The notes under the pieces: model-generated | Databases searched by the model: none | The model's input: the letters and a program-made list of their open reading frames with translations, nothing else | What the model was told of the DNA's origin: nothing | Program-made: the position numbers and the translations under genes | In this document: positions 2,472-13,430 of the stretch, piece by piece | Layout of the letters: each line of letters starts with the position of its first letter | Position numbering within the stretch: position 1 is the first letter of the stretch | Assembly (NCBI GenBank): GCA_003229305.1 | Contig: QIDH01000072.1 | Location: forward strand, 1 to 62,744 | Source of the DNA: Acidimicrobiia bacterium | GTDB taxonomy: Bacteria; Actinomycetota; Acidimicrobiia; Spongiisociales; Spongiisociaceae | Direction of reading: 5' to 3' | Length of the DNA: 62,744 nucleotides

Positions 2472-3497
2472 ATGCCACGTGTACTTGTCGTCGCCCTGGC
2501 CGCGGTCGCCTTCCTTGGATTCGTGTTTTTTGCTCTCGAGCCAACGGATCCCCAGCCGACCACGTCTTCGGCAGCTGAAGCGGAGCGAGCAGATCCCGAG
2601 GAGGTCTACGACCCGTTCACGGCAGGTGAAGAACTGCCAAGCGGCTACCGCCAACTCATCAGACGGGACGACATCCGCCCGATCTATGACCCAACATATG
2701 TCCCCGCAGCCGAGGCCGACTGGCCCGATGAGCTCCTGGTGATCGGGGTAGAGGTCAATGGCGATGCGCGGGCGTACCCCGTTAGCTTCCTCACCCGCCG
2801 AGAGATGGTCATCGACGAGATCGGAGGGGACCCGGTCCTCGTCACCTGGTGACCGATTTGTGCGACGGCGATGGTCCATCGCCGAGAACTCAACGGAGAG
2901 GTTCTCGTCCTCGGCAACCAGGGGGCGCTATGGGGCAGGGCGATGACCTGGTTCGACTACTCCACCGGATCGATCTGGAGTCAACCCCTTGGCGAGGCAA
3001 TCGCTGGACCACTCAAAGGCGAGCGGCTCGAACCTCTTCCGGTATCGCTCGGCGACTGGTCCACGTGGCGGGACGCCCACCCCGAAACACTCGCTCTCGA
3101 CACGCCTGCCCGTAGCGCCCGCTTCCAACTCGCAGACATGGCGATCGCCCTCGAACTGGGACCTGAAGCCACCGCCTGGTTGGTCCCCGCCCTCCAAGAA
3201 GCCGGCGTGGTCAACGACGTGGTCAATGGGCTCGAAGTGGTGGCGGTCACCGACCCGAGTGAGCCGGACCGCTGGGCTGTGTTCTCTCGGGTCCTCGATG
3301 ACACGACCGTCGAACTAGAAGTGCGAAACGGGGAGGTTGTCGACATCACCACCGGAACAGTTTTCGACCCGGTCCGCGGCACGGCGCTTTCAGGACCGCT
3401 GGTTGGCCAGGACCTGGACCTGTTGCCGGGTTTCACGGTCTTTCCCAGAAACTTCTTCACCTTCTGGCCAGACGGCCGCCTCTGGACGGGCGAATGA
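2472..3497 (+). CDS. DUF3179 family protein, probable selenoprotein with in-frame UGA (Sec127)
   Basis: One continuous frame runs from ATG 2472 to TGA 3497, interrupted by a single in-frame TGA at 2850-2852. Upstream of it is a signal anchor (about residues 1-24) and the typical DUF3179 start, with ...YPVSFLTRREMVIDEIGG and DPVLVTW. Downstream the same domain continues as PICATAMVHRRELNGEVLVL and ends in FTVFPRNFFTFWPDGRLW. DUF3179 proteins normally read VTYCPLC at this point, so the TGA replaces the first Cys of the conserved CPxC pair, giving VTW-U-PIC. The hairpin right after the TGA fits a bacterial SECIS. The full product would be 341 residues, exported or membrane anchored, and of unknown biochemical role, probably redox. 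A nonsense mutation or sequencing error is the alternative but explains neither the exact position nor the hairpin. Selenocysteine genes (selA, selB, selC, selD) are not in the window. Confidence 0.82.
2850..2884 (+). promoter_or_regulatory. Putative bacterial SECIS element with Sec UGA codon
   Basis: After the UGA (2850-2852) a perfect 8-bp stem forms between CGGCGATG (2866-2873) and CATCGCCG (2877-2884), closed by a GUC loop, or a GGUCC loop if the top pair opens. Twenty to 21 nt separate the UGA from the loop. The best-known bacterial SECIS (E. coli fdhF) has a GGU in the apical loop at nearly the same distance, and published bacterial models require a G at the loop start and roughly 16-37 nt spacing. 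The hairpin lies inside the coding frame, as expected in bacteria. Confidence 0.75.
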
Positions 3498-3601
3498 GGG
3501 CACGACGAACAGGTGCCAATCGCCGGTTCGTCTCAGGCCTCGGCGACCGATGAGCGGATCGCCCCACGACGGATCAGTTCCGCCTCCAACACTGCCAAAA
3601 G

Positions 3602-8422: not shown

Positions 8423-10195
8423 TCAGGCCAGGAGCCGGGCAGATGAGTGATATGGATAGATCGGGAGGCGGATGGCGTTGCGCAGCGCGGTCTGGCCTGC
8501 CTGCCACCGCTCCGGTGTGAACAGGTCCTTGTGAGCGTTCAGAAACGCTTCACGAAGTTCCCCTTGGAGGCCAAGGTAGGCAGGGAATTCTTCAGGAAAT
8601 ATGTCGTTTATGCCTACCGGGAACCATGGTGCGTCTGACATTTCATCTTCGGGGTACCTGGCCTCCGGGATCGCCCGGAATGAGCAACCCTCCAGCAATT
8701 TGAGTTCGTCGTAGTCGTAGAACACCACCCTGCCATGTCTGGTCACACCGAAGTTTTTGAGCAGCATGTCACCAGGGAAAATACCGGCGGCCATCAGATC
8801 TTTGATCGCCTGGCCGTACTCCAAGACCGCAGCCAGGCAGAGTCCCAGAGTTTCACGACGCAAGTAGACATCCAGAGGAGTGACCCGTCGCTCGACATAG
8901 ACACGGTGCAAGGTCACGGTCTGATCGCCGATCGACACGTCCCGACCGCATTGCTCATCGAGCATCTCCAACAACTCCGCGCTGAATCGATTGCGAGGGA
9001 ATTCGAGATGTTCAAACTCGTACGCATCGACGAGTCTCCCGACCCGATCGTGATTGAACACGATGTGGTACTGCTGCCTCACCTCGGATGGGGTCACCTG
9101 TTTCTGACGAGGAAAGGTGTCCTTGATCACCTTGAACACCACCTCAAAGCCTGGCAGGGCAAAAACGCTCATCACCATGCCCTCTGCGCCCTCTGCGACC
9201 ACGAACCGATCATCAGTAGATTCGAGGTGGCCTGTCAGGGCCCTGAACAGCTCTGTCTTACCGTGCTTGTGAAACCCGATCGACACATAGAGCTCTGCGA
9301 TACGTTTGCGTGGCATCAGCTCACTCAAGAAGCCGACAAGAGCGGCAGGCTCGTCCACCACAACGTGAAAGTACGAGCGAGTGAATGAGAAGAGGATCGA
9401 CAGCTCCGGCTCAGTTGTGAGCACTGCGTCCACATGGACACCCCGCTCGTCGTGCAGCAAGGCGACCGCAAAGGGATCTGAGCGGTCCTCCCGCCAAATC
9501 CGACCGACCACGTAGGCACCCATCCCTCTGTAGAAGACAGACGGGGACCATTCCACCCTCGTGATCTCCCCACCTGTGGTCTCGCGCAGCCGTTTCGAGA
9601 CAACCGCGCAGTCTTCAGCGAGGTCAGCCCAATCCGCCTCCAACAACGCAGCAGTCAGGATCTCGAAAAGAGTTTCATCCAATGAGCCGTTCACGGGTAG
9701 CCAGGACCGCACCGGCTCCCGACCGCCGCCCCGGGAATCGAAATGGAAGTCGCTCGAGACAAACTCGATCTGCTGGTCGACTCCCTGAGTGACGAATATC
9801 CGTCTGGCGATCGAGTTGAAGAAAGTCTCCGCGAGTTCACTCTGACCACTCGACTCGATCAGGCCGGAGAACACGGCCTTGATCCCGGTCCAGATCGCGA
9901 CTCGGGTCAGCCGGCCGCCGCAGACGAGCGCCAGCTCATCAATGGCCTCGTCTACCTGAGTGTCATACTCAGCAAGCCGCCGAACGCTGTCATCGGCCAT
10001 GCCTGTCCAGTCGGCTGATGCGAAACGTCGGGCGGCCAGATCGGTCAGGTCACCAAACTCGACCCAGAACCGATCGAAACGCGCCTTGATCAACCGGGCC
10101 GCATGGTTCGCGAGTCGACTATCGGATAGCTCCGACCTGTCGGGCGCCAAGGCGGGTGGCGAACCGCCAAAGGCAACGACCGGGGGGGCAGCCAT
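8423..10195 (-). CDS. aceK: Isocitrate dehydrogenase kinase/phosphatase
   Basis: AceK phosphorylates and dephosphorylates isocitrate dehydrogenase, steering isocitrate into the glyoxylate shunt. The 590-residue protein spans both the regulatory and kinase parts. Visible motifs are the nucleotide loop EGAEGMVMSVFALPGF (335-350), lysine in VVFKVIKDTFPRQK (K355), catalytic Asp in IFPGDMLLKNFG (D476) and YDYDE (493-497). It follows aceA with a TGATG overlap, so aceB-aceA-aceK form one operon as in enterobacteria. AceK is typical of Proteobacteria and uncommon in actinobacteria, so transfer is possible, although base composition looks like that of its neighbours. The icd target gene is not in the window. 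Confidence 0.93.
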   Translation of the reverse strand: MAAPPVVAFGGSPPALAPDRSELSDSRLANHAARLIKARFDRFWVEFGDLTDLAARRFASADWTGMADDSVRRLAEYDTQVDEAIDELALVCGGRLTRVAIWTGIKAVFSGLIESSGQSELAETFFNSIARRIFVTQGVDQQIEFVSSDFHFDSRGGGREPVRSWLPVNGSLDETLFEILTAALLEADWADLAEDCAVVSKRLRETTGGEITRVEWSPSVFYRGMGAYVVGRIWREDRSDPFAVALLHDERGVHVDAVLTTEPELSILFSFTRSYFHVVVDEPAALVGFLSELMPRKRIAELYVSIGFHKHGKTELFRALTGHLESTDDRFVVAEGAEGMVMSVFALPGFEVVFKVIKDTFPRQKQVTPSEVRQQYHIVFNHDRVGRLVDAYEFEHLEFPRNRFSAELLEMLDEQCGRDVSIGDQTVTLHRVYVERRVTPLDVYLRRETLGLCLAAVLEYGQAIKDLMAAGIFPGDMLLKNFGVTRHGRVVFYDYDELKLLEGCSFRAIPEARYPEDEMSDAPWFPVGINDIFPEEFPAYLGLQGELREAFLNAHKDLFTPERWQAGQTALRNAIRLPIYPYHSSARLLA

Positions 10196-11478
10196 CAGAA
10201 CTGCTTTTGCTCTGTCGAGCCTTCCAGGGCGAGTGTGGACGACCGGCCGCCCGCGACAACGTTCGACACCTGATCGAAATACCCGGCGCCGACCTCACGT
10301 TGGTGCCGGGTGGCCGTGTAGCCGAGCCCCTCCATGGCGAATTCGGACTGCTGAACCTCAACGTATGCAGACATCCCATCCCGCGCATACCCGTTGGCCA
10401 GATCGAACATAGAAGCGTTCAGAGAGTGGAAACCGGCCAAGGTTATGAACTGGAATCGGTAGCCAAGCGTGGCCAACTCCTTTTGGAACGAAGCGATCTC
10501 GTCGTCACTCAGATGCTGCTTCCAGTTGAAAGACGGCGAGCAGTTGTAGGCCAGCATCTTGTCCGGAAACTCCGCATGGATCGCGTCCGCGAACTCGGCC
10601 GCTTGACCCAGATCCGGGGTCGCAGTCTCACACCACAGAAGGTCGGCGTATGGGGAATAGGCGAGACCTCTCGCCACTGCGGACTCCATGCCGTTGTGAA
10701 TGTGGAAGAAGCCCTCCGGAGTACGTTCCCCTGTCACGAAACGGCGATCGCGCTCATCGACGTCACTCGTCAGCAGAGTCGCGGCCAACGAGTCTGTTCT
10801 GGCGACTATCAGTGTCTGCACGCCCATCACATCCGCTGCCAGGCGAGCTGCCGACAAGGTCCGCACGTGCTGCGACGTCGGAACCAGGACCTTCCCGCCC
10901 ATATGGCCGCATTTCTTTTCGGAGGCGAGCTGGTCTTCCAGATGGACTGCTGCGGCTCCTGCGGTGATGTAGCTCTTGACCAACTCGAAGACGTTGAGCG
11001 CTCCCCCGAAGCCGGCCTCGGCGTCTGCGATGATCGGAACCATCCAATCGCCGTCCTCGTTGCCTTCAGACCATTCGATCTGGTCCGCCCTGCGCAGCGC
11101 GTTGTTGATCTTGCGGACCAGTTCCGGTCCGCTGTTGACTGGATAAAGGGACTGGTCCGGATAGACCTCACCTGCCGAGTTCGCGTCGCCGGCCACCTGC
11201 CACCCTGACAAGTAGATCGCCCGCAGTCCTGCCTTGACCATCTGAACGGCTTGGCCACCCGTCATCGCCCCAAGGGCGTTGACATAGTCCTTGATGCGCA
11301 ACATTTTCCAGAGTTGTTCGGATCCTCTGGCGGCCAGTGTGTTTTCGATGACAAACGACCCCTGGAGTCGGACGACCTCATCCGGCGCATAGTCGCGGGT
11401 GATCCCACTCCAGCGGGCATCATCTTTCCACCTGGCGCGGATCTGTTCGACCCGTTGGATTGTCGTCTGGCTTTGCAC
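10195..11478 (-). CDS. aceA: Isocitrate lyase
   Basis: Isocitrate lyase splits isocitrate into succinate and glyoxylate, the first reaction of the glyoxylate shunt. The 427-residue protein carries the active-site motif KKCGHMGGK (188-196, catalytic C190), the Mg-binding ADAEAGFGG and the NCSPSFNW segment. Its size matches the short bacterial form. It lies 23 bp downstream of aceB and overlaps aceK by 1 nt, so all three are probably co-transcribed. Confidence 0.95.
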
Positions 11479-11501
11479 GTTTGGTTCCTCCCAGTTGGTG
11501 C

Positions 11502-13091
11502 TCAGTCGATGAATTCGTATGCGGGGATGGTCAGAAAATCCTCAAAATCGGGGGCGAAGATGAGCTGTTCGAGCAGCGACCAGGATGCTTCGAACCTGCC
11601 GCGGTCAAACTCCTCTGGTCCAAATTCGCTCGCCAGACGAGCCAACTCTTCAGCAGCTATCTCGCGGATGAACGGTTCGTCGACCTTGCGGTCTTCAACT
11701 GTGACCACTCCGTGGTGAACCCACTGCCAGAGCTGGGAACGAGAGATCTCGGCGGTGGCCGCGTCCTCCATGAGGTTGTAGATCGCCACCGCTCCGTTGC
11801 CACAGAGCCACGCCGCCATGTAGCGAATGGCCACGTCGACGTTGGTTCGTACCCCGGCTTCGGTGATGAGCCCACCCTCGACAGTGAAGTCGAGGAGCGC
11901 AGGCGTATTCGCCTCCACATCGTCGCGTCGACGGTCGATCTGGTTCGGTCTGTCGCCCAACCTGGCGGTAAATGCCTCTCTGGCCACTTCGATGAGGTCC
12001 GGATGGGCCACCCAGGTGCCGTCGTGCCCGTTTGCGGCCTCCCGTTCTTTGTCCTCGGCTACTTTGGCCATGGCCGTCCGGTTCACTTGTTCGTCACGGC
12101 GGCTCGGAATGAATGCAGCCATTCCACCCATGGCGTGCGCACCTCTGCGGTGGCAGGTCTTGATCAGGAGATCGGCGTAGGCCGACATGAATGGCACCGT
12201 CATGGTGATCTGGGCCCGGTTAGGCAAAACCGCATCTGGGTGCGAGCGGAACTTCTTGATGATCGAAAATATGTAGTCCCAGCGACCGGCGTTGAGCCCT
12301 GCGCAATGGTCACGCAACTCGTAGAGAATCTCGTCCATCTCGAAGGCAGCGAGGATCGTCTCGATCAGCACCGTGGCCCTGATCGTCCCGTGGGCGATGC
12401 CCAGTTCGGCCTGGGAGTATACGAACACGTCGTTCCACAGGCGCGCCTCCAGGTGGCTTTCGAGTTTCGGCAGGTAGAAATATGGGCCGGACCCCCGCTC
12501 GACCAGTTCGGCCGCGTTGTGAAAGAAATAGAGTCCGAAGTCCACGAGGCTCGCCGACAGTGGCTTGCCGTCGATCCTGAGGTGTCGCTCGGAGAGGTGC
12601 CAGCCGCGGGGACGCACCATCAACGTCGCGAGATCGGTGCCGAGCTCGTAGCGCCTACCGTCCGAGTTGGTCACTGCCAGACGTCGCCGCACCGCCTCCA
12701 TCAGGTGGCGCTGGCCATTGACCATCACGTCCCAGGTCGGCGACGCCGAGTCCTCGAAATCGGCCATGAACACGTTTGCACCCGAGTTGAGGGCGTTGAT
12801 GATCATCTTGGCGTCCACCGGGCCGGTGATCTCGACTCGCCTGTCTACGAGATCGACAGGTGGGCTGGCAACCTTCCAGTCTGCGGTGCGAATGGACACC
12901 GTCTCGTCGGAAAAATCAGGCATCTCTCCGTCATCTATCCGGTGCTGCCGCTGCGCCCTCGCTTTCATCAAATGACGTCGTCGAGCACCGAAAGACTCCT
13001 CGAGTCCGGCCAGGAAACGGAGCGCATCGTCGGTGAGGACCCCATCGCGGCCTGACGACGAGGTCGAGGCAATTTCGATCGGTCCGTTCAT
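11502..13091 (-). CDS. aceB: Malate synthase A
   Basis: Malate synthase condenses glyoxylate and acetyl-CoA to malate. The 529-residue length and sequence ([56 protein letters not shown]) identify isoform A rather than the longer GlcB type. I choose ATG 13091 because homology begins near it and the length then fits the family; AGGA lies about 12 nt upstream. A longer frame to 13166 adds only unconserved residues. It is the first gene of the aceBAK operon. Confidence 0.93.
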
Positions 13092-13430
13092 TTCGGAACA
13101 TCCTGGCTTCGGTGGATTTCCAGCTTCGGGCACCCGGTGAGACAGACATAGTCTTTCGTGCTGCAATTATGTACAAAATTTCGCATTCTGTTAAATTCGA
13201 AACAATACAGAGGATAATTTCAGATGTTATTATGCATGACCGAGACTCCATGGCCCCCAGCCGACAGCTCGCCAGCTGCGGGTTTCGGGCGACTCGTGCC
13301 CACCACGTGACTATTTTCCAGGTAGTTGGAAGTAGCCACGAAGATCGGCGATAATCTCATCTCACACCCCTGCCAGCCGATAGTCATAGGTAGGGGTCGC
13401 AAATACTCTCTCCGCTTGCCAGGAATCAGC
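13092..13430. promoter_or_regulatory. Divergent control region aceBAK / hlyIII-like gene with AT-rich core
   Basis: No gene is seen in these 339 bp. From about 13165 to 13240 the sequence is strikingly AT-rich for this genome. It contains TTTCG (13179-13183) and CGAAA (13198-13202) as an inverted repeat with a 14-nt spacer. This is a plausible promoter and activator/repressor site for the glyoxylate operon; the regulator is unknown. Confidence 0.45.

Follow-up and report, generated by a model that had tools for sequence, protein, structure and literature searches.

The DUF3179 gene and its in-frame UGA

The stretch of DNA analysed here (the window) comprises 62,744 nucleotides from a MAG assigned to Acidimicrobiia, and carries on its plus strand a gene of the DUF3179 family. 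A direct read of the window gives one reading frame from the ATG at 2472 to the terminal TGA at 3495-3497, interrupted only by a TGA at 2850-2852; a search of the genome likewise counted exactly one internal TGA in this gene. The codon stands in the context VTW-U-PIC, at the place where relatives in the DUF3179 family have CPxC, and the position that the sequence-only reading had assigned to it, that of the family's Cys, proved exact. Furthermore, the match to PF11376 (DUF3179) spans both sides of the UGA (E 7e-50; 170.5 bits against a curated cut-off of 27), in agreement with the earlier proposal that the domain continues in frame past it. The features of the locus are as follows.

2472-3497, plus strand: DUF3179 gene, very probably Sec-containing; 341 residues with Sec127, stop codon at 3495-3497, and a full-length homologue in the same genus that is 88% identical
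2475-2534, plus strand: hydrophobic helix at the N-terminus, residues 2-21, probably a membrane anchor or a signal that is not cleaved, from the sequence, an AF2 helix at 2-21 and similar N-termini in homologues
2649-3116, plus strand: first copy of a duplicated domain, residues about 60-215, with UxxC and a predicted Rieske-like beta fold
2850-2852, plus strand: in-frame UGA, codon 127, predicted Sec127 of UPIC, in the place of the first Cys of CPxC in the family
2859-2861, plus strand: TGT codon of Cys130, which is invariant in the alignments and presumed to pair with Sec127 in UxxC
2866-2884, plus strand: putative SECIS hairpin of 8 bp with loop GUC at 2874-2876, from folding and conservation
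3084-3494, plus strand: second domain copy, residues about 205-341, without UxxC, from hhalign

The hairpin is formed by the arms CGGCGAUG (2866-2873) and CAUCGCCG (2877-2884) around the loop GUC, with 13 nt between the UGA and the stem and 21 nt between the UGA and the loop, and folds with an MFE of -12.8 kcal/mol over 38 nt, or -11.7 as the bare hairpin. The bacterial SECIS model requires a loop of 3-9 nt, a stem of 4-16 bp, a G in the first two loop positions, a spacing of 16-37 nt and an MFE of -7.5 kcal/mol or lower (PMC13188914). All of these published constraints are satisfied here (a 3-nt loop that begins with G, an 8-bp stem, 21-nt spacing and an MFE of -11.7), and the perfect 8-bp hairpin with a G-containing loop that had been described 20-21 nt downstream was recovered as such. 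A comparable hairpin at that distance is present at about 0.4% of window positions, and at 9 of the 1815 TGA trinucleotides of the window, which makes the hairpin here unlikely to be a chance occurrence. The folding energy alone was unexceptional when compared with shuffles (z -1.6), so that the case for a SECIS is carried by the evolutionary evidence. No SECIS match at the hairpin was found with Rfam; a SECIS_3 match at 3494-3538 on the minus strand was attributed to chance.

Conservation of the UGA codon and of the hairpin

In a first alignment of 18 sequences, TGA was found at one column in 16 (window included) and TGC in two. When 84,980 species genomes were scanned, the motif was recovered at 76 loci, mostly from Acidimicrobiia together with Nitriliruptorales and Chloroflexota, and at the UGA column these public genomes have 72 TGA, 3 TGC and 1 TGT, which are the UGA/Cys pairs that the sequence-only reading had suggested looking for. 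Within a class-level set of 296 genomes, TGA was present in 26 of the 29 subfamily matches (counted from the table) and almost never in other DUF3179 subfamilies. In the tree the Sec forms all fall within a single set of 78 sequences (72 U, 6 C), separate from 32 sampled Cys paralogues with 100% SH-aLRT; its root is a midpoint root only, which does not give the direction of Sec/Cys change. One match to DUF3179 that does not belong to the main Sec subfamily (G211:C37:62082-62957, minus strand) also has one TGA, and a second origin of Sec is possible there.

Purifying selection persists 3' of the UGA. Against the same-genus homologue (88% identical), dN/dS was 0.096/0.93 before the UGA and 0.053/0.95 (about 0.06) after it, with zero changes in the hairpin codons. 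The hairpin codons are also frozen at synonymous sites. Across 66 Sec sequences from actinobacteria, the stem codons for Thr, Ala and His are 100% fixed, as against a mean share of 58% for the commonest codon at 41 other positions of the same sequences, and the stem His codon is CAT, whereas the His at codon +36 is CAC in 92% of them. Base pairing of the stem is kept in 99.4% of the cells scored. Two stem pairs show a double compensatory change, in two distant lineages, CGGGAAUG/CAUUCCCG in a member of Nitriliruptorales (L185) and CGGGCAUG/CAUGUCCG in a member of Chloroflexota (L193); since these compensatory events are few and most pairs hardly vary, the freezing of synonymous sites is the stronger argument. 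Five Chloroflexota members have a CCGGUC/GACCGG hairpin in a different register.

The hairpin is lost in the Cys members L076, L197, L199 and L203. A tandem of Sec and Cys DUF3179 genes was observed at L064:7138-9372 on the minus strand, where the Cys copy (the same gene as L133), next to the Sec copy of the same genome, retains an intact SECIS-like hairpin. Retention of the hairpin is what would be expected after a recent Sec-to-Cys change, which is the likely history of this copy. The clade offers a clean case of a SECIS maintained by RNA-level selection, with compensatory changes that affect the encoded protein as well, and also of hairpin decay in most Cys relatives.

Selenocysteine machinery and alternative readings of the UGA

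The host MAG is 72% complete. It contains a complete selD gene with an in-frame UGA of its own in GAGUACK (L027:1381-2442, minus strand; G000 contig C1, about 63.8-64.8 kb) and a hairpin with a GGUCU loop 26 nt after that UGA, and its SelD is probably itself a selenoprotein. The arrangement of an in-frame UGA followed by a G-loop hairpin is shared with the DUF3179 gene, although the proteins are unrelated and the role of SelD is to supply the selenium donor. Searches of the 72% complete MAG for selA, selB and tRNA-Sec (selC) did not find them: tRNA-Sec matches on contig C73 were serine tRNAs, a partial SelA match on C99 fell below the cut-off and was judged a paralogue, and for selB there were only weak, partial matches to GTPases, interpreted as other translation factors. 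A genome of the same genus has overlapping selA and selB genes and a tRNA-Sec with a UCA anticodon. In the set of relatives, the selA cut-off was passed by 51 of 59 genomes and the selB cut-off by 50 of 59, and in most of them tRNA-Sec matches were well above the serine-tRNA background, the formal tRNA-Sec cut-off alone failing to separate tRNA-Ser; selA, selB and tRNA-Sec are present in most or nearly all of the order. The earlier claim that the host uses Sec is supported by selD in the MAG and by selA-selB with tRNA-Sec in its genus. Absence of these genes and of selD from a complete genome had been named as grounds for rejecting it, which does not apply to this MAG because it is 72% complete and selD is present.

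The gaps in the MAG machinery would also fit a genuine stop at the UGA, the gene being either a pseudogene or split in two, with a downstream gene in the 208-aa ORF that begins at ATG 2871. Against this, the 3' part still shows a dN/dS of about 0.06, and dozens of species have TGA at the same codon. Translation from 2871 would begin within the hairpin and omit U-P-I-C. The hairpin, moreover, is conserved at synonymous sites where Sec is present and has decayed in most forms with Cys; we therefore regard a genuine stop as very improbable. Equally improbable is a suppressed or reassigned UGA, read as Trp or Cys under another genetic code. UGA is reassigned in some bacteria, but here TGA also serves as the terminal stop of the same gene and of many homologues and is limited to one codon within the gene, and the genus has selA, selB and a tRNA-Sec (UCA). 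Still less credible is a sequencing or assembly error in which TGC or TGT was misread as TGA. The gene comes from a single MAG and Cys is the alternative in relatives, as an error would require, but independent MAGs of many genera, obtained in many different studies, have the identical TGA.

The exchange of UGA and Cys, the selection past the UGA, the conservation of the hairpin and the machinery of the genus together make Sec insertion at UGA codon 127 very likely on comparative sequence grounds. SelB and tRNA-Sec would decode this codon as selenocysteine, recruited by the hairpin just downstream, and we infer that this insertion also takes place in the source strain itself.

Protein architecture, possible function and known families

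The product would be a membrane-anchored, extracytoplasmic DUF3179 protein, the bulk of which probably lies outside the membrane. Comparison of its first half with its second half by hhalign (97.4%, E 1.5e-11) revealed an internal tandem duplication. UxxC is found in the first domain copy only, and neither CxxC nor UxxC is present in the second copy, which has probably lost its redox site. Sec127 and Cys130 would make up a selenol/thiol redox site, UxxC, in the first of the two tandem beta-rich domains, and a redox role of the protein, as first proposed, appears probable. TlpA-like and CcdA/DsbD-like genes occur within about 4 kb in 6-7 of 73 loci, as a raw count; Pfam bore out two of the TlpA-like assignments and one of two CcdA-like ones. 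Such neighbours are consistent with extracytoplasmic thiol chemistry, though they are not general. Gene neighbourhoods were mostly not conserved, the largest neighbour cluster covering 11 of 73 loci, and its neighbours in the window are proC and a gene for uridine kinase, which say little about function. Elsewhere in the window, Pfam identified adjacent genes on the minus strand (8423-13166) for AceK (isocitrate dehydrogenase kinase/phosphatase), isocitrate lyase and malate synthase. AceK is mainly proteobacterial, so that finding it in Acidimicrobiia deserves attention.

The AF2 models had a pLDDT of 87 for the whole protein and 94 for the first domain. For both models the best high-probability Foldseek matches were Rieske [2Fe-2S] proteins (for example PDB 3gce, 5bok and 5cxm), with probabilities up to 1.00, target-normalised TM about 0.5-0.64 and E-values of 0.006 or worse, and no thioredoxin fold was among the structural matches listed for either. 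The only structural match with E <0.001 was BFVD A0A1V0SD44, a protein of unknown function from the giant virus Indivirus ILV1 (E 1.1e-6, TMt 0.55). A sequence search of the PDB gave nothing significant, and profile comparison by hhalign assigned Rieske homology a probability of 0.1-0.4% with narrow and broader alignments. Unlike Rieske proteins, the window protein lacks the CxH...CxxH ligand set, its invariant cysteines being those at the U/C127 and C130 positions only, with no CxxH after them. The models thus suggest a Rieske-like fold without cluster ligands. A more tentative proposal, which we consider possible and rather doubtful, is that DUF3179 arose by duplication of a Rieske-like fold whose [2Fe-2S] ligands were lost, with the Sec/Cys pair in the former cluster-binding loop acting as an extracytoplasmic redox centre; a selenol would then have replaced an iron-sulphur site.

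DUF3179 (PF11376) is already listed as a selenoprotein family with the motif UxxC/T (PMC9312934, 2022; PMC13188914, 2026), as the sequence-only reading had guessed for some of its members, and the former review credits the DUF3179 selenoprotein to Zhang and Gladyshev 2007, from a deltaproteobacterial symbiont of Olavius algarvensis. The kind itself is therefore not new, which lowers the novelty of the finding; in the open-licence literature we found no mention of Acidimicrobiia for DUF3179 selenoproteins. The window protein has the Pfam family and the UxxC motif in common with the known selenoproteins, but its Acidimicrobiia/Chloroflexota clade has a strongly conserved SECIS of its own. Cys-containing DUF3179 proteins (CPLC and similar) have the domain in common but carry Cys where the window protein would have Sec; both further DUF3179 loci of the MAG (contigs C39 and C43) are of this Cys type, C43 having PYCTLC here. 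The window protein is a well-supported addition to this family of selenoproteins; new are the large Acidimicrobiia/Chloroflexota Sec clade with its SECIS data set, the internal domain duplication, the probable N-terminal membrane anchor and the predicted, unproven, Rieske-like fold without ligands.

Standard-code annotation splits the Sec DUF3179 gene in two at its active site, and dozens of Acidimicrobiia genomes would suffer the same error. The predicted Rieske-like fold provides a testable biochemical hypothesis for a domain of unknown function.
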